Shown: positions 3,073 to 17,766 of the stretch, piece after piece
Layout: every line of letters begins with the position of its first letter
Position numbering within the stretch: position 1 is the stretch's first letter
Program-made: the position numbers and the translations under genes
From: a virus
Strand: one strand, 5' to 3'
Length of the DNA stretch: 23,017 nt
IMG/VR virus record: IMGVR_UViG_3300048591_001383
Location: 1-23,017 of that record
Notes under the pieces: generated by a model
Databases searched by the model: none
Told to the model about the DNA's origin: nothing
The model's input: only the letters and a program-made list of their open reading frames with translations

Positions 3073-3244
3073 CGAAGTATATATCGGCGACGGTGTCTAT
3101 GCGAGTTACGATGGCTATCAATTTCTGCTTAGAACGAAGCGAGCGCATGGATGGGACGAAATTTATTTAGAGCCAAATGTGCTAGATGCTTTTGAAAGAT
3201 ATGTGAAAGGCGTGCGCGCAAAGGAGTTAGGTCTTGAAAATTGA
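3062..3244 (+). CDS. Conserved small phage protein, unknown function
   Basis: The 60-residue product has the pattern NEVYIGDGVYASYDGYQFLL, then EIYLEPNVLDAFERYVK. I recognise the G-D-G-V-Y-x-S-x-D-G-Y and YLEPxVLxA elements from small phage proteins of unknown function encoded in early gene clusters. It overlaps both neighbours by about 11 bases. No role can be assigned. Confidence 0.7.
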   Translation: MKNNEVYIGDGVYASYDGYQFLLRTKRAHGWDEIYLEPNVLDAFERYVKGVRAKELGLEN

Positions 3245-3587
3245 AGATATCAAGAGGATTGCTGATGATTACCCTGATTTTAAAAAAATCATAGATCAGC
3301 ATATACACGATATAATGCAGCAAAAGGAGAAGTTTATTGCATATCAAATACATATCAATGATCTTAACCCCCAAGATTATACGCTTTGCTATAACACTCG
3401 CGATGATGGTTCTACCCAAATTTGGCTTGAGAAGAAGGATCTAAAAATCGACAAACTGATTGCCGTGGTTGAGGCGGCGAAAGCCATAGCAGGATACACT
3501 TATTTTAACAGCACTAAGTTTGGGTATTCTTTTGGTAGAGACTTCGGATTGCTTAAAAAAGCTTTAGACGAATTGGAGGGGGAATGA
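3234..3587 (+). CDS. Hypothetical protein, modular paralogue of the 5470 gene
   Basis: The 117-residue product begins MKIEDIKRIADDYPDFKK and ends with LIAVVEAAKAIAGY, then LLKKALDELEGE. The gene at 5470-5814 has the same ends (MKLEDMKRIAEG; FIKLAEAAKSIFD; SLKKALEELEKE) around a different middle. The central segment here (residues about 18-75) has polar helical then strand character and no catalytic motif. The ATG lies inside the preceding gene's end, and the stop overlaps the MazG-like gene by 4 bases. It is likely a small adaptor or regulator; function unknown. Confidence 0.65.
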   Translation: MKIEDIKRIADDYPDFKKIIDQHIHDIMQQKEKFIAYQIHINDLNPQDYTLCYNTRDDGSTQIWLEKKDLKIDKLIAVVEAAKAIAGYTYFNSTKFGYSFGRDFGLLKKALDELEGE

Positions 3588-4737: not shown

Positions 4738-5466
4738 ATGTTAAATGGCTTGGATTTATTTAGCGGAATCGGAGGAATATCCTTGGCCTTGGCACCATGG
4801 GTCAGACCTATTGCCTACTGTGAAAGAGATCAATATGCCGCGTCCGTACTCATCAGCAGAATGTTATCAGGGGATCTGTCCGTCGCTCCAATATGGGATG
4901 ACGTGCGAACACTCAAGGGATGTTATCTTCCGCCGGACGGAGTTGACATCATCTACGGAGGTTTCCCCTGCCAGGATATTAGCATTGCAGGACATGGTAA
5001 AGGATTGGCAGGCGAGCGAAGTGGCTTATTTAGAGAGATCATTAGGCTTTGTCGCGAAATTCGACCAAGCTTCATATTCTTGGAGAACGTACCGGCAATT
5101 GCTTTTCGGGGGCTGGGAGACGTTGTCAGTGAAATTTCCGCGATGGGGTATGACTGTAGATGGACTGTTATGTCAGCCGGAAGCCTTGGAGCCTGTCACT
5201 TGCGTGAAAGATGGTGGTTACTTGCCTACTCCAATATTATCGGACAAAAAAAGGGGATTGAGAGGGACTCAGTGGGGTTATCAAACTTGCCCAACTTTAA
5301 GTCTGAAAGGAAATCTACCTGGACACCCAAAGGGTTTATTGAACCCAGAGTGGACCGAGTTGGCAATGGGATATTCAAAAGGTTGGACAGAATTGGTTCC
5401 CTTGGCAATGCAGTGGTTCCGATCCAAGCGCGGGAAGCATTCAAGTTATTGATGGGTATGAGGTGA
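4738..5466 (+). CDS. C5 cytosine-specific DNA methyltransferase
   Basis: The 242-residue protein has the ordered C5-methyltransferase motifs: I DLFSGIGG (6-13, AdoMet binding), IV GGFPCQD with nucleophile C78, VI FLENV with E116, VIII RERWW (R156-x-R158), and X GNAVVP (223-228). It transfers a methyl group from AdoMet to C5 of cytosine, most likely to shield phage DNA. The region between motifs VIII and X, where the target recognition domain sits, is only about 57 residues, so this is a short family member. GGAG lies 5 bases before the ATG. No cognate restriction gene is nearby. A second long frame (4745-5452) overlies almost the whole gene. Confidence 0.9.
   Translation: MLNGLDLFSGIGGISLALAPWVRPIAYCERDQYAASVLISRMLSGDLSVAPIWDDVRTLKGCYLPPDGVDIIYGGFPCQDISIAGHGKGLAGERSGLFREIIRLCREIRPSFIFLENVPAIAFRGLGDVVSEISAMGYDCRWTVMSAGSLGACHLRERWWLLAYSNIIGQKKGIERDSVGLSNLPNFKSERKSTWTPKGFIEPRVDRVGNGIFKRLDRIGSLGNAVVPIQAREAFKLLMGMR
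4745..5452 (+). CDS. Overprinted second protein inside the methyltransferase gene
   Basis: In the +1 frame relative to the methyltransferase an ATG 7 bases after its start opens 235 codons, ending 14 bases before its stop. The product reads like a real protein. It has SSTEVSPARILALQDMVKDW, then FDQASYSWRTYRQ, FPRWGMTVDGLLCQPEALEP, GGYLPTP, and LLNPEWTELAMGYSKGWTEL. I recognise the series (x-S-Y-S-W-R-T, W-x-x-x-P-R-x-G-M, L-P-T-P, LNPxWxExxMGxxxGWTxL) from phage proteins encoded with C5 methyltransferases and often annotated only as hypothetical. The shared GGAG ribosome site is 12 bases from this ATG. It may be translated separately, by reinitiation or by frameshift. Function unknown. Confidence 0.6.
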   Translation: MAWIYLAESEEYPWPWHHGSDLLPTVKEINMPRPYSSAECYQGICPSLQYGMTCEHSRDVIFRRTELTSSTEVSPARILALQDMVKDWQASEVAYLERSLGFVAKFDQASYSWRTYRQLLFGGWETLSVKFPRWGMTVDGLLCQPEALEPVTCVKDGGYLPTPILSDKKRGLRGTQWGYQTCPTLSLKGNLPGHPKGLLNPEWTELAMGYSKGWTELVPLAMQWFRSKRGKHSSY

Positions 5467-6579: not shown

Positions 6580-7266
6580 ATGAATATCTTGCCCGTTCTC
6601 CTGCTTGCTTGCCCTCAAGTCAAAATCTCTAATCTTCCACCTGGTGGTTATCTTAATGTTCGTTCAGGCGACGACATAACGTTTCCTGTGATCGACTATG
6701 TTAGGCAAGGCGACACGCTCGAAACAAACGGACCAAAAACCAACAACAATTGGTTTCACGTGAAACATAATGGAAAAACTGGTTATGTTTCAGGGAAATA
6801 TGCGGAATGCCAAAACGAAGAAAAACGCTATGTTTGGACAGTGCCAAAAGGTTATGTCTGCCAAGCGTTCGGTAAAAAAATAAGCTACCAAACATGTGGG
6901 TTTCATACGGGCTTGGATATTTGTGCGGCTCAAGGTGAGGATATCCTTGCCCTTGCCGATGGCCTAGTCATTCACGTTGGTCCCCTTTGGTACGACGCGC
7001 CCGGAACTGGACGCGGACCATATAGCGTTGTTGTTGATCATGGAAACGGTTTTTATTCAACATATGGTCATAATTCAAAGACGATTGTAAAAGTTGGTGA
7101 TAATATTATCGTAGGACAAAAAATAGGCGAAATCGGAAATCTTGGTTTTTCTTACGGGCCGCATCTTCATTTAGAAGTTTTGGAAAACGCAAAATGGACG
7201 GGTGATTGGCGACGACCGTTTAAGGATGCTTGCGGTAAGTACAAAAATCCTTTGAATTACAAATAG
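6580..7266 (+). CDS. SH3b + M23 peptidase, putative endolysin
   Basis: The product has 228 residues: a short hydrophobic start, an SH3b-like wall-binding domain at about 16-75 (GGYLNVRSGD, then W-F-x-V and GKTGYVSGKY), then a LytM/M23 zinc peptidase at about 85-225. M23 ligands are visible: H109-x-x-x-D113 (FHTGLDI), H164 (TYGHNSK) and H195-x-H197 (HLHLE). Such enzymes cut peptide crosslinks in peptidoglycan. Residues 8-11 (LLAC) fit a lipobox, but the leader is only ten residues and has no positive charge, so membrane anchoring is uncertain. The ribosome site is weak. It lies beside a secreted glycosidase, suggesting a cell-envelope degrading pair. Confidence 0.85.
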   Translation: MNILPVLLLACPQVKISNLPPGGYLNVRSGDDITFPVIDYVRQGDTLETNGPKTNNNWFHVKHNGKTGYVSGKYAECQNEEKRYVWTVPKGYVCQAFGKKISYQTCGFHTGLDICAAQGEDILALADGLVIHVGPLWYDAPGTGRGPYSVVVDHGNGFYSTYGHNSKTIVKVGDNIIVGQKIGEIGNLGFSYGPHLHLEVLENAKWTGDWRRPFKDACGKYKNPLNYK

Positions 7267-7289: not shown

Positions 7290-8816
7290 ATGAAATTTTT
7301 TCTTTTATTGCTACTCGCGTTTTCAAGCCCATCATTCGCTCACAAGATCGGCCCTCACCTTCTTGATTTCAATTTAAGCGGAGAATATGAGAAGATTGTA
7401 TCGCGTATAAAACCAAGGGTTATTAAGCTTGTTGATGCCAACGCTGAGCGCATCAACAAGTATTATTCCATTTCCCCAAAATCAATCTTCGTGATCCGAA
7501 ACCATCCCTTGTCAGAGCAAAAGTCAGACATGCAAAAAGATCCAGTTGGCACTGGCAGACGTCATGCTGACGAATGGGCAAGTAAGTCAAAATCTTACAG
7601 CATTCCTAAAAACCAAATGATCTTTTTAGGCATCAATGAACCAGCGATTTGGTCGGGGGACGCATATGAAGACGCAACAATCAAATACACAGTCGCCTTT
7701 TTGGACCGTCTTAAAGAACATGGGCTTAGAGGTGGCGCACTTAACCTTAACACCGGACATCCAAGAACCAGTGGAGGACGACCAAACTGGACTTCACTTG
7801 ATCCTATACGAGAGGCAATTATTCGGGGTGATCATGTCCTGATGATTCATGAGTATTGGGATAAACGCGGACCAGATGCACAGTGGCAGTGGAATCCTGG
7901 ACGGTTTCAAACTCACAATAAAACTTGGAACGTAAAAGTCATTGTCGGCGAAACCGGCATTGACGAAGTCGTGAACGGTGCGCCGAAGCATTCCGGTTGG
8001 CGAAATCATATTTCCGCAAGCGAATATCGCAAACAGCTCATGCGCTACAGTGATTTAATAAGCCAAGATAAACGAATCATTGGTGCGGTCGTTTTTACGG
8101 CGGGCGGCAACAACGATTGGACGACATTCGAGACACTTGAAGCATTAAAAGATTTTCCAGTTAACGACGAATTCGGAGAACCAGACTTAGGGAACCCTGG
8201 CCCAACGCCAGTTCCAGGCGTCACTTCAATTCCAGGAGCGCCTTGGACCAAAATAACATCTGCTTCAGGTTCAAAAGTTTGGAAGCTAGCAAAAGCTGAA
8301 TTCCTAGATGAGAAAGCTAGCGGGGGCAGACACCATATTTTTTCTGGCAATGGTGTGACCATGGTTGCAACCAATGCCAATGGTGCCGTAACGAAATCGA
8401 GCGGTGATATCCCTATGTGGTCGCAAGATGAGTATTGCGTAACCGCTGAAGGTCAAGGCGTTACAGTCAGCGATAAGGTTTGCGGCCTTCGAATGGAACC
8501 TAAGAATCACCACGTTAGCTATCGTTTATTCTTTGAATTATCATCTGGTTCAAATCCAACACCTGCACCAAGCGGACTTGAACAAGCTTTGATTAACGAG
8601 GCGCAAGCCAAACAAGTGATTCAGTTCAACCCCAACGCCGCACTGCAAAAAGCAATCTTTGCTGCTGGCTTTGTTCCAAACTCGGGAGAGTTTAAAATAA
8701 ATGTATCAGGGACTTTCTATGTTGCTCAGCGCGCAGAGCATCTAGTTACAGGCGAAGTGAGAGTTTACTACTGCAAGGATGGAGTTTGGAATGATGTCAA
8801 TTTCGTCAAAAAATAA
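7290..8816 (+). CDS. Secreted glycoside hydrolase-like protein (clan GH-A-like barrel)
   Basis: The 508-residue product has a clear signal peptide, MKFFLLLLLAFSSPSFA, with cleavage likely before H18. Residues about 20-290 look like a TIM barrel: FLGINEP places E117 after Asn, as in the acid/base of clan GH-A enzymes, and VIVGETG places E221 as a candidate nucleophile. A proline/glycine linker follows (about 300-320, PDLGNPGPTPVPG), then two C-terminal segments separated by a second Pro-rich linker near 425 (NPTPAPSG). These are probably binding modules. Substrate is unknown; a peptidoglycan or surface polysaccharide is likely given the M23 neighbour. The ribosome site is AGAGG. The exact GH family is not determined. 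Confidence 0.7.
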   Translation: MKFFLLLLLAFSSPSFAHKIGPHLLDFNLSGEYEKIVSRIKPRVIKLVDANAERINKYYSISPKSIFVIRNHPLSEQKSDMQKDPVGTGRRHADEWASKSKSYSIPKNQMIFLGINEPAIWSGDAYEDATIKYTVAFLDRLKEHGLRGGALNLNTGHPRTSGGRPNWTSLDPIREAIIRGDHVLMIHEYWDKRGPDAQWQWNPGRFQTHNKTWNVKVIVGETGIDEVVNGAPKHSGWRNHISASEYRKQLMRYSDLISQDKRIIGAVVFTAGGNNDWTTFETLEALKDFPVNDEFGEPDLGNPGPTPVPGVTSIPGAPWTKITSASGSKVWKLAKAEFLDEKASGGRHHIFSGNGVTMVATNANGAVTKSSGDIPMWSQDEYCVTAEGQGVTVSDKVCGLRMEPKNHHVSYRLFFELSSGSNPTPAPSGLEQALINEAQAKQVIQFNPNAALQKAIFAAGFVPNSGEFKINVSGTFYVAQRAEHLVTGEVRVYYCKDGVWNDVNFVKK

Positions 8817-10762: not shown

Positions 10763-11054
10763 AATTCTTTTAGCCATAGGCTCGCGTGAAAACATTCGCG
10801 TTTGGAAAAACACCACGGGCGTGGGACGCGCCTTCGACTCGGACCGTATCATTTCGTTTGGTCTAAAAGGATCCGCCGATATCATCGGCATCATAAAGCC
10901 GCATGGTCGATTTTTAGCCATCGAGGTTAAAACGGGCGCGGCAAAACAGACCGCCGAACAACTTGCATTTGAGAAAATGGTTATAAAATTCGGGGGTGTC
11001 TATATTGTCGCACGCTCGGTTGACGATGTCTTAAAGGCCATCAGCGAAGCCTAA
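10674..11054 (+). CDS. VRR-NUC domain nuclease
   Basis: From ATG 10674 the product has 126 residues; a TTG at 10650 is an alternative. The VRR-NUC core is plain: WKNTTGVGRAFD, then LKGSADIIGI with D69, FLAIEVKTG with E84-x-K86, KQTAEQLAFE, and GGVYIVARSVDDV. These residues make the PD-(D/E)XK-type metal site of small phage nucleases that cut branched or structured DNA. The gene starts about 90 bases before the end of the helicase gene in another frame, implying coupled expression. Substrate preference is not readable. Confidence 0.85.
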   Translation: MKRKRTSPTLSAKNSAPQNKYSAHQALVHEILLAIGSRENIRVWKNTTGVGRAFDSDRIISFGLKGSADIIGIIKPHGRFLAIEVKTGAAKQTAEQLAFEKMVIKFGGVYIVARSVDDVLKAISEA

Positions 11055-11128: not shown

Positions 11129-13630
11129 TTGCAAGAGCTCATCCATTTTGCTTCCAACTTGGGTTTTACTCCACCGGGCGGTTTCGAGCTTAACGGCAAG
11201 CTTGTTCGGTTTCCCCGCGACGCGAGGACGCCACATAAAAAGAATGCTTGGTATATCGGTTGGCAGCATTTCACCACAAAAACCGGCGAACCTTACAATA
11301 TTGCAATTTTTGGTGACTGGTCAACGGGCGATCGCCACGAGTATAAAGCGAGCAACGTAAAGTTTTCGCGCGAAGACCAAGAGATTGTAAAAAAGCGTTT
11401 AAAAGAGGCACGCGACCACGCCGAAGCGGATCGTCGCGAGCGTCAAGCCGAAGCCGCAAAGAAAGCTGAAAAACTAGTAGCCCTCATGCGTCCCGTAGCG
11501 GCGTCGCCCTACCTTGAAAAAAAACAAATTACCGATCTTCATGGCGCCGGAACCATTATGAACGAAATGGGCGAGCGCGTTATCGTTGTCCCCCTTCGCG
11601 ACGAGGACGGTAAGCTTTGGAGCGTGCAGCGAATCTTTCCGGATGGATCGAAACGTTTCTTAACATCGGGTCGCGTAGCCGGGTGTTTTCACGTCATGGG
11701 CGACGTCGAAGACGACGCGGTCTTTTTAGCCGAGGGTTTTGCGACAGCGGCAACCATCAGACAGGCAACCGGCCAAACCGTGCTGGTTTGTTTTAACGCG
11801 GCCAACTTGATCGACGTCGCAAAAGCAGTGCGTCGAAAATGGACAAACAAAGCCATCACAATTTGCGGCGACGACGACGCGTTTACCGACGGCAACCCGG
11901 GACGCACCAAAGCCGAAGAGGCCGCCAAGTTTGCGCTCGGCAAAACCGTGTTTCCAAAGTTTAAAAACAATTCTGAAACTGTCAAGTTGACAGACTTTAA
12001 TGATCTTCATTTGGCCGAGGGTATCGAGGCCGTTAAGGAACAGCTTCAAACGGGCGGCAAGCCAGAACCGGTTGGTTATATTTGCCTTGGCTTCGACGGC
12101 AACACGCATTTCTTTTTTGACATGAGTTCGAACGACATAAAAAAGCTGTCTAATTTTTCATCAACTGAACTGTTTGAGCTCATGCCTCTCGAGTATTGGG
12201 AGTCGACCTACATGGGCACGCGTGGCGTGCGGTGGGAAAAAGCAAAGTCCGATATTAAGCAGGTATCAAAAAACGTTGGTGCCTTCGATCCGTTTCGCGT
12301 GCGTGGAACCGGTGTTTGGTTCGACCGTGGGCGCACGATTGTCAACACGGGACGTAGCCTTATCGTTGATGGCCGACGAGCAACGATGAGTGACTTCAAA
12401 ACGAACTATGTTTATGTGGCAACCAGAAATAAGATGCCGGCAATTCATGCGAGTCCTTTAAGCGTTGCTGAAACAAAACCGCTGCTCGATGCTTGCGAGC
12501 TTTTGCAATGGCGCGACAACAAGGCTTGGGTTTTTTTGTCTGGCTGGATTGCCATTGCCCGCATTGCAGGAGCCATGCCAATTAGACCGCACCTTTGGCT
12601 CACGGGCGGATCGGGGACCGGCAAGTCGACGGTCATGGATAAAATCATTCGTCCAGCCCTTGGGTCGGAAGCCAGTCGCCTTTATCTGCAAGGTGGAACG
12701 ACCGAGGCGGGCATCCGCCAATCGATCAAGGCCGATAGCCTTCCCATCATCTTCGACGAGTTTGAAACTAACAACGAGGCCACCAAGGAGCGCGTACAAA
12801 ACTTGGTCGAGCTCCTGCGTCAAGCCTGGTCGCACACGCAAGGCCACGTCGTAAAAGGATCCGCAAACGGCGTGGCGTCTCATTATGCGCTTTCTTTCGC
12901 GGCCCTCGTTTCGTCTATTCGGGTATCCCTCGACAACGATGCCGACCGTTCGCGGTTTACCGTCGTCGAACTCGTGCCGCACGGATCGCGAAAGGAACAA
13001 TGGGCACAGATGAAAGAAACGTTGAAATTCATAACCGAGGATTTTGGCGAGCGGTTATTTTCGCGCATGATCAAAATGACGCCAATTGTCCTGCAATCCT
13101 ACGAGGTCGCTGCCGACGCGCTATCCAGTGTTGTGAACCAGCGGTTCGGGCAACAATATGGGATGCTTCTTGCCGGTTGGTATGCCCTCATGTCAGATAC
13201 GCCTTTAACCGATAAGATAGCCATTGATCTGGTGAATGAACTTGGCTTTTCTGACGAGCGCGACGAAGTAAACGAGTCGACCGACGAGCGCGACTGTTTT
13301 TCGCATCTTTGCACGACGAAAGTAACCGTCCAAGATCAATGCGGTTCTCGGTTTGAAAAAACCGTTGGGGAAATACTTAAGGGCGGTGCATGGTTTGAGA
13401 TTGAATCTCTTAAGAGTTATGGCATACTATGTGAACCAAATGAAAACTATATTTACATCGCCAACGAACATGCCTCGCTCCGCAAGTACATTTTTGCGCG
13501 CACGCGGTGGGAGCTTTGTTGGCGCAAATCACTTCTACGCCTTCCAGACGCTGCGTCAGCAGGACACCGTTGGTTCGGCGGAAAACAATCCAGGTCAGTT
13601 AAAATACCGAAATCTCTCCTGAATTCGTAA
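11129..13630 (+). CDS. Toprim primase-helicase, replication protein
   Basis: This 833-residue protein starts at TTG, with GAGG 8 bases upstream; no better in-frame start is present. The N-terminal ~110 residues (PGGFELNGKLVRFPRD; WYIGWQHF) resemble the DNA-binding region of phage/plasmid primases. A Toprim core follows: LAEGFATAATI (200-210) and CGDDDAF (246-252). The C-terminal ATPase has Walker A GGSGTGKST (493-501), Walker B PIIFDEFE (539-546), and DNDADRSRF as a likely arginine-finger region. It would lay primers and unwind the fork. It is the most GC-rich gene here, and the candidate origin begins at its stop codon. Confidence 0.88.
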   Translation: MQELIHFASNLGFTPPGGFELNGKLVRFPRDARTPHKKNAWYIGWQHFTTKTGEPYNIAIFGDWSTGDRHEYKASNVKFSREDQEIVKKRLKEARDHAEADRRERQAEAAKKAEKLVALMRPVAASPYLEKKQITDLHGAGTIMNEMGERVIVVPLRDEDGKLWSVQRIFPDGSKRFLTSGRVAGCFHVMGDVEDDAVFLAEGFATAATIRQATGQTVLVCFNAANLIDVAKAVRRKWTNKAITICGDDDAFTDGNPGRTKAEEAAKFALGKTVFPKFKNNSETVKLTDFNDLHLAEGIEAVKEQLQTGGKPEPVGYICLGFDGNTHFFFDMSSNDIKKLSNFSSTELFELMPLEYWESTYMGTRGVRWEKAKSDIKQVSKNVGAFDPFRVRGTGVWFDRGRTIVNTGRSLIVDGRRATMSDFKTNYVYVATRNKMPAIHASPLSVAETKPLLDACELLQWRDNKAWVFLSGWIAIARIAGAMPIRPHLWLTGGSGTGKSTVMDKIIRPALGSEASRLYLQGGTTEAGIRQSIKADSLPIIFDEFETNNEATKERVQNLVELLRQAWSHTQGHVVKGSANGVASHYALSFAALVSSIRVSLDNDADRSRFTVVELVPHGSRKEQWAQMKETLKFITEDFGERLFSRMIKMTPIVLQSYEVAADALSSVVNQRFGQQYGMLLAGWYALMSDTPLTDKIAIDLVNELGFSDERDEVNESTDERDCFSHLCTTKVTVQDQCGSRFEKTVGEILKGGAWFEIESLKSYGILCEPNENYIYIANEHASLRKYIFARTRWELCWRKSLLRLPDAASAGHRWFGGKQSRSVKIPKSLLNS

Positions 13631-13860
13631 CGGATGTAACAGACTGTAACGTTCTAACTTCCTGAAATCACGGGAGTTGTTACGCTTGTTACGCTTGTTA
13701 CGCCGGGGGAGAGATACATGAGAACAACACACAAAATACAAATAGATATATATATCTATATATATATATAAATATATGTAATGTATGTAACATGTGTAAC
13801 ATGTTGTGTGGTTGCAAGGGGTTAGGGCGTTACAAAACGCGTTACGCTCCGTTACGCAAA
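13621..13860. other. Candidate replication origin: GTAAC/GTTAC repeats around an AT core
   Basis: Eleven copies of GTAAC or its reverse complement GTTAC lie in about 230 bases. GTAAC starts at 13627, 13636 and 13646; GTTAC at 13679, 13688 and 13697. GTAAC recurs at 13787 and 13796, and GTTAC at 13829, 13841 and 13851. Spacing is mostly 9-10 bases, close to one helical turn. Between the two halves, 13740-13786 is almost pure A/T and includes the palindrome AGATATATATATCT (13744-13757), suited to strand opening. Placement directly after the primase-helicase gene supports an origin. Origin function is inferred. Confidence 0.55.
13677..13703 (+). repeat. Three perfect tandem copies of TTGTTACGC
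   Basis: Three uninterrupted 9-base units, TTGTTACGC, occupy these 27 bases. They are the most regular part of the GTAAC/GTTAC cluster and resemble iterons bound by replication initiators. Near-copies (CGTTACGC, CCGTTACGC) occur at 13840-13857 on the far side of the AT-rich core. Confidence 0.85.
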
Positions 13861-14129
13861 ATAATTGAAATGATTGAGCCAAAATTAGTATTCTTGGTAA
13901 CTGTTTTTAAATTTCACTAACCAGCAACCGATCAAAACGAGGCGCCAGGAGCCATAGGATATCTGGTTAATGCGAAACATGGGGGAAATGCTAAAATTGA
14001 TTTAAGAGCGGTTTTTGCTCTCTTAAAAACGTATGTACATTCTCGGCTATTTTGTTATAACATCAAGAAAACAAGTCGAAGTTATAAGCACTTATATTAA
14101 CATCTTGATATTACAGCGAAAATTCAGCC
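13861..14129 (+). promoter_or_regulatory. Non-coding leader of the deazaguanine operon
   Basis: No supported gene lies here. A hairpin can form at 14001-14027 (TTTAAGAG/CTCTTAAA around a T-rich loop), not followed by a T-tract, so it is not a clear terminator. GTTATAAC occurs at 14054-14061, matching one arm of the 538-556 repeat and an extended -10 element. ACTTATATTA and CATCTTGATA near 14090-14110 also occur in the control region at 19131-19166. This stretch probably holds the promoter for the ParB-dpdA-queCDE-folE operon, but no -35 box is convincing. Confidence 0.4.
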
Positions 14130-14693
14130 ATGCAAATTGTCACACTAAAAATCGAAGATTTGGTTTTTGACCCAAATAATGCTCGTAAACATGGTCAAAA
14201 AAACTTGGATGCCATAAAAGGATCACTGGTCAAATTCGGCCAGCAAAAACCAATTGTCGTAAATGAAAAAAATATCGTCCTTGCCGGCAACGGAACTCTT
14301 GAGGCAGCAAGACAACTTGGCTGGGATACGATTCAGTCCGTCGTGACCGATCTTGATAAGTTCAATCAGACGGCGTTCAGTTTGGCCGATAATCGTACTG
14401 CTGAGTTAGCTTCTTGGGATGAGGAGATTCTTGGTTCAAGTCTACGATCTTTACAGGGTGAGGAATATGACCTAAATGCCATTGGTTTTAGTGATGATGA
14501 TGTAATTGCGTTTTTGAGTGATTGGCATTCAGATATTGATAAAAATAGTAATGTTGAAAAAACAGATGAAAATCTCGACGGTATCACCTCGACGATAAAA
14601 ATTACTTGTCCACAAGAAATCAAAGATGAAGTTCTAATTTATTTAAAAGCAAAATTTTTGGAAGTTAGTTTCGAGGGTATTCACATTGGATAA
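14130..14693 (+). CDS. ParB-like (ParB/Srx fold) protein heading the deazaguanine operon
   Basis: The 187-residue protein has an N-terminal ParB/Srx domain at about 1-100. It shows DPNNARKHGQKNLDAIKGSL, FGQQKPIVV, LAGNGTLEAARQLGW (the nucleotide-binding GxGxxxAA loop) and SLADNRTAELASWDEEIL. This type often precedes or is fused to DNA methylases; here it stands alone with a ~45-residue C-terminal strand-helix module (STIKITCPQEIKDEV). Its stop overlaps the dpdA start by 8 bases. In bacterial dpd islands the ParB-like ATPase DpdB works with DpdA in inserting preQ0, so a DpdB-like role is inferred. A separate nuclease or partition role is possible. Confidence 0.75.
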   Translation: MQIVTLKIEDLVFDPNNARKHGQKNLDAIKGSLVKFGQQKPIVVNEKNIVLAGNGTLEAARQLGWDTIQSVVTDLDKFNQTAFSLADNRTAELASWDEEILGSSLRSLQGEEYDLNAIGFSDDDVIAFLSDWHSDIDKNSNVEKTDENLDGITSTIKITCPQEIKDEVLIYLKAKFLEVSFEGIHIG

Positions 14694-15507
14694 AGTGAAC
14701 ATCCTTGTTGGTTATCCCTATTTAAACAACAAACCATCACTTGAATTTTTTAAAAACAACATAAGCAGTATTAATTTATTGATTGATAGCGGCGCATTCA
14801 CAGCTTGGAAATCAGGAAAACCAATTAAAATTGACGACTATTGTCTTTTTTTGGAATCAATAAATTTTCCAACATTTGGTTATTTCACATTAGATGTGGT
14901 CGGTAATCCTCACGAAACAATGAAAAATTATGAAACAATGTTAAAAAGAGGATTTAAACCTATTCCTATTTTTACGCGTGGTGAAAGTTTATCGGTTTTG
15001 GAAGACTATTACAAAACAAGTGATATCGTGGCAATCGGTGGTTTGGTTCAAACTATTGGTAACAAGGGTTTTGTAAAAGGAATCATGAAACATGTAAACA
15101 AACGCAAGGTTCATTGGCTTGGTTTTTGTAACAAAGATTTTGTTAACCACTATAGACCGTTTTCGATTGATTCATCTTCATGGGAGTCTGGTGCTATTTT
15201 TGGATCCCTCGAGTTGTATATTGGAAAAGGAAAGTTTATTAGACTCGGGAAAAAAGATTTTTCACAAAAACCAAGGAAAGAAGTTATAGACCATATACAG
15301 TCTTATGGTTTTAAGATAAATGATTTTTCAAAAAATGAAAATTGGAGTGGTGGCAAATCCTTAAATAGGCAGCTTTGCGCAGCTAGTATTGTTCGTTATA
15401 TGTTGGATTTAAGAAAAATTTTAAATGTAAACTATTTTGCAGCAAGCGCCACAATGTTGGCTTTTACTTTGTTGTTAAATTCATTGGAAATGGAAAATAA
15501 TAAATGA
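14686..15507 (+). CDS. dpdA: DpdA-type DNA guanine transglycosylase
   Basis: The 273-residue protein starts at TTG, with GAGGG 8 bases upstream, inside the ParB gene end. It is a compact TGT-like barrel: LLIDSGAFTAW (D34), FGYFTLDVVGNP (D70), IPIFTRGE, VAIGGLV, HWLGFC, and FSIDSSSW (D162). The DSGAF and SIDSSSW signatures are those of phage DpdA proteins, which swap guanine in DNA for preQ0 or a derivative. It is shorter than tRNA TGT and lacks its C-terminal Cys zinc site. Which aspartates match the TGT base and nucleophile needs alignment. Overlap with queC is 4 bases (ATGA). The context of four preQ0 synthesis genes makes the call strong. Confidence 0.88.
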   Translation: MDKVNILVGYPYLNNKPSLEFFKNNISSINLLIDSGAFTAWKSGKPIKIDDYCLFLESINFPTFGYFTLDVVGNPHETMKNYETMLKRGFKPIPIFTRGESLSVLEDYYKTSDIVAIGGLVQTIGNKGFVKGIMKHVNKRKVHWLGFCNKDFVNHYRPFSIDSSSWESGAIFGSLELYIGKGKFIRLGKKDFSQKPRKEVIDHIQSYGFKINDFSKNENWSGGKSLNRQLCAASIVRYMLDLRKILNVNYFAASATMLAFTLLLNSLEMENNK

Positions 15508-16166
15508 AAACATTAATTGTTTTATCAGGTGGAATGGATTCGACCGTTGCTTTAGCGCAGTGTCTTGAGACAAATAATAAAGATAATATAGAGTCTATTA
15601 CTTTTAATTATGGTTCAAAACATAATGAAAGAGAAAACATTGCTGCAAAAAAAATATCGGATTTTTATGGAATAAAAAATAAATTGGTTTACCTTCCATT
15701 TATAAATGAGCTTTTTAAAAGTGATCTTTTATTAAGTGGCGGCAATATCCCAGAAGGTCATTATGCTGATCCAAGCATGAAAAAAACAGTTGTTCCATTT
15801 AGGAATGGCATCATGTTAGCTATTACTGCTGGCTATGCTGAATCAATAAACGCTAACAAAATCATTCTTGGAAATCATGTAGGTGATCATTCGATTTATC
15901 CTGATTGTACAAAAGAATTTACAGACCCAATGGCTGAAGCCATAAAAAACGGAACTTATACAAAAGTTGAATTGATAAATCCTTTTGGGAAAATAAACAA
16001 AACAGATATATGCAGAATTGGTTATAAATTAAATGTCCCGTTTGAATTAACTTGGTCATGTTATGTCGGCGGTGAAAAACATTGCGGTAAATGTGGCACT
16101 TGTTACGAAAGAAAAGAAGCATTTAATGATTCAGGAGTAAATGATGTCACTGAATATTCAGTGTAG
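15504..16166 (+). CDS. queC: QueC, 7-cyano-7-deazaguanine (preQ0) synthase
   Basis: The 220-residue protein has the PP-loop ATP pyrophosphatase motif SGGMDS (8-13), the family stretch VPFRNGIMLAITAGYA (97-112), GNHVGDHSIYPDC, and a zinc site C186, C194, C197, C200 (EKHCGKCGTC). It converts 7-carboxy-7-deazaguanine (CDG) with ATP and ammonia to preQ0. Length is normal for QueC with no fused amidotransferase domain, arguing against archaeosine-type (dG+) modification. The ATG overlaps the dpdA stop by 4 bases. Confidence 0.95.
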   Translation: MKTLIVLSGGMDSTVALAQCLETNNKDNIESITFNYGSKHNERENIAAKKISDFYGIKNKLVYLPFINELFKSDLLLSGGNIPEGHYADPSMKKTVVPFRNGIMLAITAGYAESINANKIILGNHVGDHSIYPDCTKEFTDPMAEAIKNGTYTKVELINPFGKINKTDICRIGYKLNVPFELTWSCYVGGEKHCGKCGTCYERKEAFNDSGVNDVTEYSV

Positions 16167-16578
16167 TAGAAAAATACATTTTTGTTCTGGGCATCGTGTT
16201 TTAAATCATGAAACCAAGTGTGCAAATCTACACGGTCACAATTATGTTGCTTGGTTTAATGCCGAGGCTGATTCACTAGACAGCATAGGTCGTATTATAG
16301 ATTTCTCTGTTTTAAAAGAAAAAATTGGTGGCTGGATAGATAAACATTGGGATCATACAACAATTATATTTCAAGACGATACTGACCTTATTAGCATTAA
16401 AGATAAATTGGAGAAAAATAAACCTGTTTGGATTTCCCCATTTAATCCAACCGCTGAAAATATGGCTAAATATCTTTTTGAAGTTGTTTGTCCGGACGTT
16501 TTAAAAGATACGGGTGTTTTTGTAACAGAAGTTATACTTTATGAAACAGAGAATTGTTATGCAAAAGTATCGTGTTAA
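16144..16578 (+). CDS. queD: QueD, 6-carboxytetrahydropterin synthase
   Basis: The 144-residue protein belongs to the PTPS/QueD family: HFCSGHR (H12, H17), C26 in TKCANLHGHNY with H30 and H32 as zinc ligands, DHTTI, and ETENCYA near the C-terminus. It converts 7,8-dihydroneopterin triphosphate to 6-carboxy-5,6,7,8-tetrahydropterin. Two ATGs in tandem (16141, 16144) are possible; AGGAG at 16133 lies 6 bases before the second, which is preferred. The start sits inside the queC end. Confidence 0.92.
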   Translation: MSLNIQCSRKIHFCSGHRVLNHETKCANLHGHNYVAWFNAEADSLDSIGRIIDFSVLKEKIGGWIDKHWDHTTIIFQDDTDLISIKDKLEKNKPVWISPFNPTAENMAKYLFEVVCPDVLKDTGVFVTEVILYETENCYAKVSC

Positions 16579-17185
16579 AGAAATATTTGGACCAACAATT
16601 CAGGGTGAAGGTTCCCAATCCGGAACTGTTGTTAATTTTTTGCGCTTTGCTGGTTGTAATCGATGGAACGGAATCTCTAGTTACAAAGAAAAATCTATTT
16701 GCAGTTTTTGTGACACAGATTTTGTTGGTGGAGTTAAGTTAACAAAAGAAGAAATTCTTATTAAGTTATCTCTTCTTGGTAATGTTAAAACTGTCGTTAT
16801 ATCAGGCGGAGAACCAACAATCCAACTAGACGAGACTCTTTGTCAATATCTAACAGATAACGGTTATATTTTACATTTAGAAACGAATGGCTCAAATAAC
16901 ATAGATCATATTTCTAAATATTTTTCACATATAACTGTCAGCCCAAAACAATCATTTACAGAGACAAAAATAAGCTTTGCTAATGATTTAAAAATACTTT
17001 GGCCAGCTATTTCCCCGGAAATAACCCCAGATCATTTTAAGGATTTTAAATCTAATAATAGATTTTTACAGCCTGTTTATGGAGATGTTTACGATCCAAA
17101 CTTAAAACAAACCATAGATAAATTGATTAGTATTGAAACTTGGCGGTTATCGTTACAAACACATAAAATTATAGGTGTTCAATGA
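16559..17185 (+). CDS. queE: QueE, 7-carboxy-7-deazaguanine synthase (radical SAM)
   Basis: From ATG 16559 the product has 208 residues; an in-frame ATG at 16541 would add six. 16559 puts YRVKEIFGPTIQGEG at the very start, as in known QueE. The cluster-binding cysteines are C33-x14-C48-x2-C51, the CX14CX2C variant found in QueE rather than the usual CX3CX2C of radical SAM enzymes. VISGGEPT supports AdoMet binding. It rearranges 6-carboxytetrahydropterin to CDG. It overlaps queD upstream and folE downstream (ATGA). Confidence 0.94.
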   Translation: MQKYRVKEIFGPTIQGEGSQSGTVVNFLRFAGCNRWNGISSYKEKSICSFCDTDFVGGVKLTKEEILIKLSLLGNVKTVVISGGEPTIQLDETLCQYLTDNGYILHLETNGSNNIDHISKYFSHITVSPKQSFTETKISFANDLKILWPAISPEITPDHFKDFKSNNRFLQPVYGDVYDPNLKQTIDKLISIETWRLSLQTHKIIGVQ

Positions 17186-17766
17186 TCAATGAAGAAAAAA
17201 TTGCAAGCCATTTCTTAGCTATAATGAAGGAGATTGGATTAAATACTGAAGATGATTCTTTGATTGATACACCAAAACGCGTTGCGAAAATGTACTCTAG
17301 GGAATTGTTTTATGGTTTGAACTCAGATAATTTTCCAAAAATAACTGTACAGGAAAATAAATTTAATTATGATCAAATGCTTGTGGAAAGCAATATAACA
17401 GTTAAGTCCCTGTGTGAGCATCATTTCGTTCCAATTATCGGAGCTTGTCATTTAGCTTATATCCCATCAAAAAAGATCATTGGTTTATCAAAGTTTAACC
17501 GTATTGTGGACTATTTTTCAAGACGACCTCAAGTTCAGGAACGTTTAACCAATGACATATTGGTTTGTTTAAAAGATGTTTTGGAAACAGATAATGTTGC
17601 TGTTGTTATTGATGCGGTTCATATGTGTGTAAAGTTAAGAGGGATTGAGCATAATAGCACTATAACTCGTACCAGTGCTATATCTGGAGTTTTTAAGAGT
17701 AGTGATGCAAGGTTTGAATTTTTTAATAGCATTCCCAAACCAAATAATCTTCATGATGTTATTTAA
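17182..17766 (+). CDS. folE: GTP cyclohydrolase I
   Basis: The 194-residue protein has DTPKRVAKMY (29-38), SLCEHHFVP with C78 and H81, a long conserved core (IGLSKFNRIVDYFSRRPQVQ), and VHMCVKLRG with C149. The zinc ligands C78, H81 and C149 keep the 71-residue spacing of E. coli FolE (C110/C181). It opens GTP to dihydroneopterin triphosphate, the first step of the deazaguanine route. It overlaps queE by 4 bases, and its 3' end overlaps the convergent gene on the other strand by 8 bases, so no classic terminator sits between them. Confidence 0.95.
   Translation: MINEEKIASHFLAIMKEIGLNTEDDSLIDTPKRVAKMYSRELFYGLNSDNFPKITVQENKFNYDQMLVESNITVKSLCEHHFVPIIGACHLAYIPSKKIIGLSKFNRIVDYFSRRPQVQERLTNDILVCLKDVLETDNVAVVIDAVHMCVKLRGIEHNSTITRTSAISGVFKSSDARFEFFNSIPKPNNLHDVI

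Follow-up and report, generated by a model that had tools for sequence, protein, structure and literature searches.

A putative SaPI/PICI-type replication origin adjoins the primase-helicase gene of a tailed phage

PICI origins always consist of two iteron sets that flank an AT-rich region and lie directly 3' of the initiator gene (PMC6092414), and SaPI origins have the same place and the same anatomy, with iteron sets around an AT-rich region (PMC6092414, PMC7581432). In PMC9894130, repeats that face each other are proposed to serve the loading of a pair of hexamers, head to head. A 2018 statement held this layout to be common to no known bacterial replicon except PICIs, and plasmid maintenance conferred by initiator plus origin has been tested for EcCICFT073 (PMC6092414). 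In SCC elements, the C-terminal domain of Cch2 binds short repeats that follow the Cch2 gene directly; there are three AAGTG iterons at the putative SCCmec origin, and the primase is a separate polymerase of the A family (PMC7581432).

Iteron plasmids and lambda-type origins (lambda O) resemble the locus described here in having direct repeats beside an AT-rich melting region and an initiator encoded by the replicon. Their initiator is not a helicase and recruits host DnaB/DnaA, and the lambda iterons lie inside the O gene, whereas in the present locus the array lies outside the gene and the presumed initiator is the helicase itself. The alpha protein of satellite phage P4 is a fused primase-helicase that also recognises its own origin (ori/crr), and in this respect corresponds to the presumed origin recogniser here; in P4, however, the primase is of another type, the iterons are longer, and there are two sites apart from each other.

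The window, that is, the whole stretch of DNA analysed, is a virus record of 23,017 bp with terminase and portal genes at its right end, and is probably a fragment. Its candidate origin is an array of GTAAC/GTTAC pentamers next to the gene of a primase-helicase (Table 1), and we consider it very probable, from the sequence, a structural model and analogy with the described systems, that this array is a replication origin recognised by that protein. All eleven pentamers of the original prediction are present between 13627 and 13855. A spacing of 9–10 bp, which had been proposed for them, holds start to start for group A (9 and 10), group B (9 and 9), group C (9) and one step of group D (10), but the other step of group D is 12. 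The three TTGTTACGC tandems said to be perfect are indeed so, and occupy 13677–13703 in group B. For exact pentamers, the grouping into 3, 3, 2 and 3 sites of alternating orientation is also correct; a degenerate twelfth site, GTAAT at 13778–13782, 9 bp before 13787, turns it into 3, 3, 3 and 3, with the layout 3+3 / A/T core / 3+3. Read as GTAAC, the sites are three on the plus strand, three on the minus strand, the core, two plus (three with GTAAT) and three minus. The cluster was expected to start at the stop codon of the primase-helicase gene and starts even inside it, the first pentamer being G-TAA-C at 13627–13631 with the end of the open reading frame at 13630. One extra GTAAC, at 13897, lies outside the array. 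An open reading frame on the minus strand (13595–13882) runs across the array, and is not treated as a gene because its Pfam matches are all below threshold.

Table 1. Coordinates of the putative origin and of the adjoining primase-helicase gene in the window.
Feature	Position	Strand	Basis and details
Iteron group A, three GTAAC	13627..13650	+	sequence; starts 13627, 13636, 13646
Iteron group B, three GTAAC on the minus strand (plus-strand GTTAC)	13679..13701	-	sequence; starts 13679, 13688, 13697
Iteron group C, GTAAC at 13787 and 13796, degenerate GTAAT at 13778	13778..13800	+	sequence; 9-bp steps
Iteron group D, three GTAAC on the minus strand	13829..13855	-	sequence; GTTAC starts 13829, 13841, 13851
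A/T core, putative DNA-unwinding element	13733..13792	.	60-bp stretch with the lowest stability in the window, from nearest-neighbour energies
Primase-helicase, presumed initiator	11129..13630	+	Toprim_3 primase part, MCM/Cch-like AAA+ helicase, C-terminal DNA-binding-like domain
C-terminal domain, residues 684-833	13178..13627	+	winged-helix-like fold, then beta-hairpin; AlphaFold2 pLDDT 91.5
Terminal beta-hairpin, residues 809-827	13553..13609	+	predicted; strands 809-816 and 819-827; codon of residue 815 at 13571-13573

The density of the pentamers, for which a comparison with shuffled sequence had been suggested, was evaluated in 20,000 first-order Markov shuffles of the array region (300 bp); these contained 1.18 sites on average and 7 at most, as against the eleven observed. 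When the whole window was shuffled 500 times, the pentamers in any 240-bp stretch numbered at most 5. The least stable DNA of the complete genomes of Bdellovibrio phage phi1422 and Serratia phage MQ-4 is found at the place equivalent to the A/T core, within the iteron cluster. The change in base composition at the cluster, to which the original prediction drew attention, is real, with GC falling from about 50% to 32%, but it arises from a 7-deazaguanine gene cluster of low GC content, starting at 14130, and in itself is no evidence for an origin. The GC skew, also proposed as a check, is mostly positive across the window and does not switch at the array, either in the window or in phi1422; it is therefore uninformative as an origin test, and neither supports nor refutes the assignment.

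The genes from 14130 to 17766 (about 32% GC) encode a ParB-like protein, a tgt-like protein (phrog_887), QueC, QueD/PTPS, a QueE-like radical SAM protein and FolE; judged from these predicted products, they constitute a 7-deazaguanine DNA-modification cluster, with a GC content far below that of the primase-helicase gene. The first of them, and the first gene downstream of the array, is that of the ParB-like protein (14130–14693; phrog_620), and repeat arrays can be centromeres, so that the array might be the partition site of this protein. We regard such a role as scarcely credible. The ParB-like protein has the ParB_N part only and is grouped with QueC, QueD, QueE, FolE and the tgt-like enzyme; phi1422 and MQ-4 keep the array but contain no match to this protein or to the genes beside it, and the letters of the array co-vary with the helicase instead (see below).

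Elsewhere in the window, two open reading frames at 4738–5466 and 4745–5452 overlap almost fully in different frames, and both are protein-like. One is a C5 cytosine methyltransferase (Pfam E 1e-32; phrog_363), and the other matches phrog_1008 (E 4.5e-17). This overprinting seems to be conserved, since one and the same stretch of Salmonella phage S9-5 (32184–32840 and 32192–32902) has matches to the two frames. An open reading frame of 508 residues with a signal-peptide-like start and without a Pfam or PHROG match (7290–8816) adjoins an M23 peptidase with an SH3 domain (6580–7266). The window contains no tRNA and no member of an Rfam family.

The primase-helicase has 833 residues, contains a Toprim_3 domain at residues 198–299 (E 1.3e-10), and matches phrog_35358, DNA primase, with an E value of 6.5e-194. 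Its best named relative is the primase of phi1422, with 39.8% identity over the full length. The profile TIGR01613 (primase, P4 family) was touched by only one of 14 family members, with an E value of 0.06, and the similarity of the sequence to SaPI Rep is below profile detection. An AlphaFold2 model of residues 314–833 (pLDDT 93) has SCCmec Cch (5dgk) as its best whole-length structural match, with a Z score of 15.5 and a root mean square deviation of 8.1 Å over 419 residues. The next matches are MCM proteins and SaPI5 Rep, with Z scores of 12–13.6 (13.2 for SaPI5 Rep), and the presumed initiator thus has, by model, a helicase fold of the Rep/Cch type. When the C-terminal domain was searched alone, the top VIA-align match was the C-terminal domain of SaPIBov1 Rep (8tch; Z 4.9), and Foldseek returned nothing at E below 0.001. 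The SaPIBov1 Rep match is weak by itself and is consistent with the context of the modelled helicase. In the model, residue 815 is placed near the turn of the final beta-hairpin.

Conservation in related phages was a further check that had been proposed, and arrays do recur beside homologues that are 30–50% identical to the primase-helicase, with the layout kept and the letters changed. The window has no direct nucleotide matches among phages, and the window protein alone as a query found nothing in viral or genome contigs; scans based on an alignment were needed, and yielded several hundred relatives. In a first set of 68 homologues dereplicated at 90%, 40 have an array, and 34 of the 40 arrays start between -60 and +120 bp of the initiator stop codon. 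A further set of 118 homologues, also dereplicated, has 55 arrays, 46 of which start in the same interval. About half of the homologues (28 of 68 and 63 of 118) are without an array under the criteria used. An iteron-like pentamer embeds the initiator stop codon in 48 of 96 array-bearing loci. The pentamers found are GTAAC, GTTAC, GTGAC, GTTAG, GTGAG and GTAAG, more rarely GTAAT, GTATA, GTAGA and others.

Arrays of 5–15 sites, with more in a few loci, make up this collection. The iteron count has a mode of 12 and a median of 11, and the median core gap is 97 bp; twelve iterons are thus the modal and not a fixed number, the counts varying from 5 to over 15. In the non-palindromic classes, for which the orientation is unambiguous, 20 of 22 loci have the iterons next to the core directed away from it. 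A relative that is 41% identical (L021) shows the 3+3 / core / 3+3 layout of the window with GTGAC in place of GTAAC, and both L021 and L343 have three sites at the place of group C. Phage phi1422 has twelve GTTAC/GTAAC pentamers around an A/T stretch directly behind the primase stop codon. Such a cluster lies 1.7 kb downstream of the gene in MQ-4, just upstream of the gene in Acinetobacter phage Acjo_20, and directly behind the gene in an Atlantibacter plasmid; phi1422 and MQ-4 each contain one such cluster in the whole complete genome, at about 14.0–14.3 kb in phi1422 and about 41.4–41.7 kb in MQ-4.

The same module of initiator plus array occurs in prophage-like bacterial contigs (L343, L328, L374, L332 and L331) from Roseomonas, Hyphomonadaceae, Acidithiobacillus, Cyanobium and a beta-proteobacterium. 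The Arsenophonus nasoniae plasmid paNv_CH14 (L008), a small natural replicon of 8.2 kb, is linear and carries a protelomerase and the helicase; directly behind the helicase, at 3176–3450, it has a ATTACAAA/GTAAT iteron array around an A/T core. In another relative (L082), nine GTTAG form an additional cluster at 10872, which lies 4.2 kb beyond the stop codon of the primase-helicase gene; this cluster differs in class from the GTAAG-type sites at their usual position behind the stop codon, and is possibly a second or foreign origin.

Pentamers that bind a repressor or the helicase could form an operator array controlling the downstream operon or the helicase gene; the array does lie in a 500-bp gap before the next gene, at 14130, where gene-near arrays can regulate, and promoter-like matches are found in and near it. 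These matches are, however, at chance level (3 found against 2.6 expected). The array is 3' of the helicase gene in most relatives and 1.4–4 kb away or upstream in others, the downstream neighbours differ among phi1422, the Atlantibacter plasmid and the window, and an operator needs neither a melting core nor opposed iteron sets. Control of transcription as the function of the array is therefore judged very unlikely, and a regulatory side effect alongside an origin role is possible.

The letters of the iterons provide a connection between the array and the protein. The column of residue 815 had the highest normalised mutual information with the iteron class (0.67, as compared with 0.44 for the next column): Arg or Lys at this position accompanies C as the fifth base of the iteron, and Trp, Tyr or His accompanies G. 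The rule learned on the first set was applied to held-out loci, namely fresh loci with an array near the stop codon, and was correct for 34 of 34 C-ending and 7 of 7 G-ending arrays (41/41; Fisher 4e-8). When 535 columns were ranked on the held-out loci, residue 815 came out on top and was followed by residue 820, which belongs to that hairpin as well. Over both sets, Trp, Tyr or His is present at 815 in 20 of 20 G-ending arrays and in 1 of 57 C-ending arrays, and Arg or Lys in 54 of the 57 C-ending ones; the association of an aromatic residue or His with the fifth base has a Fisher value of 1e-17 when kinship is ignored. When kinship is taken into account, all nine independent contrasts in both sets agree (sign test, p 0.004), as do the four independent contrasts of the held-out loci alone, and the fifth base changes 12 times on the helicase tree. 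A Mantel comparison of iteron class with helicase or C-terminal-domain distance was null (p 0.46), because the letters switch faster than the family diverges.

The sole C-class array with an aromatic residue at position 815 is that of the window, which combines Trp815 with a C-ending iteron. The rule thus holds at the level of the family, and this phage departs from its simple form. Arg814 precedes Trp815 and may, as a guess, compensate for it. Recognition by arginine of the guanine that pairs with C would be a contact of a familiar kind. No residue stood out clearly for the third iteron base; the signals, at residues 820, 813, 814 and 825, were weak. We lean, by a little over an even chance, towards a simple code by which the specificity of a GTnAn iteron would change in step with that of the C-terminal hairpin in an MCM-like initiator, at a SaPI-like origin shared by tailed phages of many hosts; Arg or Lys at 815 would read C, Trp, Tyr or His would read G, and neighbouring hairpin residues would affect the third base.

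Linkage alone cannot name the binder, and with about half of the homologues lacking an array by the criteria used, the array could be an origin bound by another initiator and merely linked to the primase-helicase gene. This is exceedingly unlikely in view of the co-variation: at least nine independent switches, as well as the held-out loci, show the fifth base following a single residue in the helicase hairpin, and the two best of the 535 columns fall in that hairpin. The array moreover accompanies the helicase in phages, plasmids and prophage-like contigs. DnaA boxes (TTATNCACA, at most one mismatch), which DnaA-dependent iteron plasmid origins have, are absent between 11092 and 14605.

Recognition by the primase-helicase thus remains the preferred reading, and the candidate origin of the original prediction is supported by the recurrence of arrays in relatives, by the low stability of the core, by the co-variation of the letters with the helicase C-terminal domain, and by a model that is nearest to the self-loading initiators of SaPI and SCC elements. 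By analogy with those initiators, we infer a course of binding by the primase-helicase, double-hexamer loading, melting and initiation. The C-terminal domain would bind each pentamer (GTAAC here), and the four triplets, opposed across the A/T core, would gather two helicase rings head to head. The rings would melt the core, after which two forks would start, with the N-terminal Toprim part acting as the primase. The modal number of twelve sites fits the loading of two six-membered rings, with counts that vary.

SCCmec Cch and SaPI Rep, the initiators that the modelled helicase resembles most, have their origins immediately behind their own genes, in the form of iterons on either side of AT-rich DNA; the array is therefore read as a SaPI/PICI-type origin in tailed phages. 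As in SaPIbov1, SaPI5 and the E. coli PICIs (Rep or Pri-Rep), the array is directly 3' of the initiator gene, here with the stop codon inside the first iteron, and two iteron sets flank the least stable stretch. The SaPI/PICI initiator is a self-loading hexameric helicase, to which the likeness here is one of fold in the model. Its C-terminal domain binds the iterons, to which the co-variation of residue 815 with the fifth base would correspond, the window itself being exceptional. By contrast, the replicon here is a tailed phage with terminase and portal and not a satellite, and its iterons form four triplets of a GTnAn pentamer. The primases of SaPIbov1 and SaPI5 are of the AEP type, whereas the present one is Toprim_3, so the locus is not a SaPI replication module in the strict sense. 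With SCCmec Cch/Cch2, the modelled protein shares the overall helicase architecture, but twelve sites and a fused Toprim primase take the place of the three iterons and the separate polymerase.

Origins of this type have been described in satellites and SCC elements. To judge from the literature searched (a body to which the main papers on the SaPI origin and Rep structures do not belong), three points are new: the type extends across tailed phages whose primase-helicases are of the Toprim kind, its layout of twelve sites is combined with letters that switch, and a hairpin residue co-varies with them, a specificity position of which no description was found. The genome paper of phi1422 names no replication origin or iterons. 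The arrays thus supply candidate origins for a large phage group, phi1422 included, for which none was found described in the searched literature, and the layout that the 2018 statement (PMC6092414) reserved for PICIs is extended to phages. Since letter and residue have changed together in frequent, independent switches, single substitutions can be used to test how a self-loading helicase recognises its origin, and the switches form a natural series in which to study the evolution of new specificities in initiators and origins. If the code holds true, frequent switching would stop co-infecting phages and satellites from firing one another's origins.
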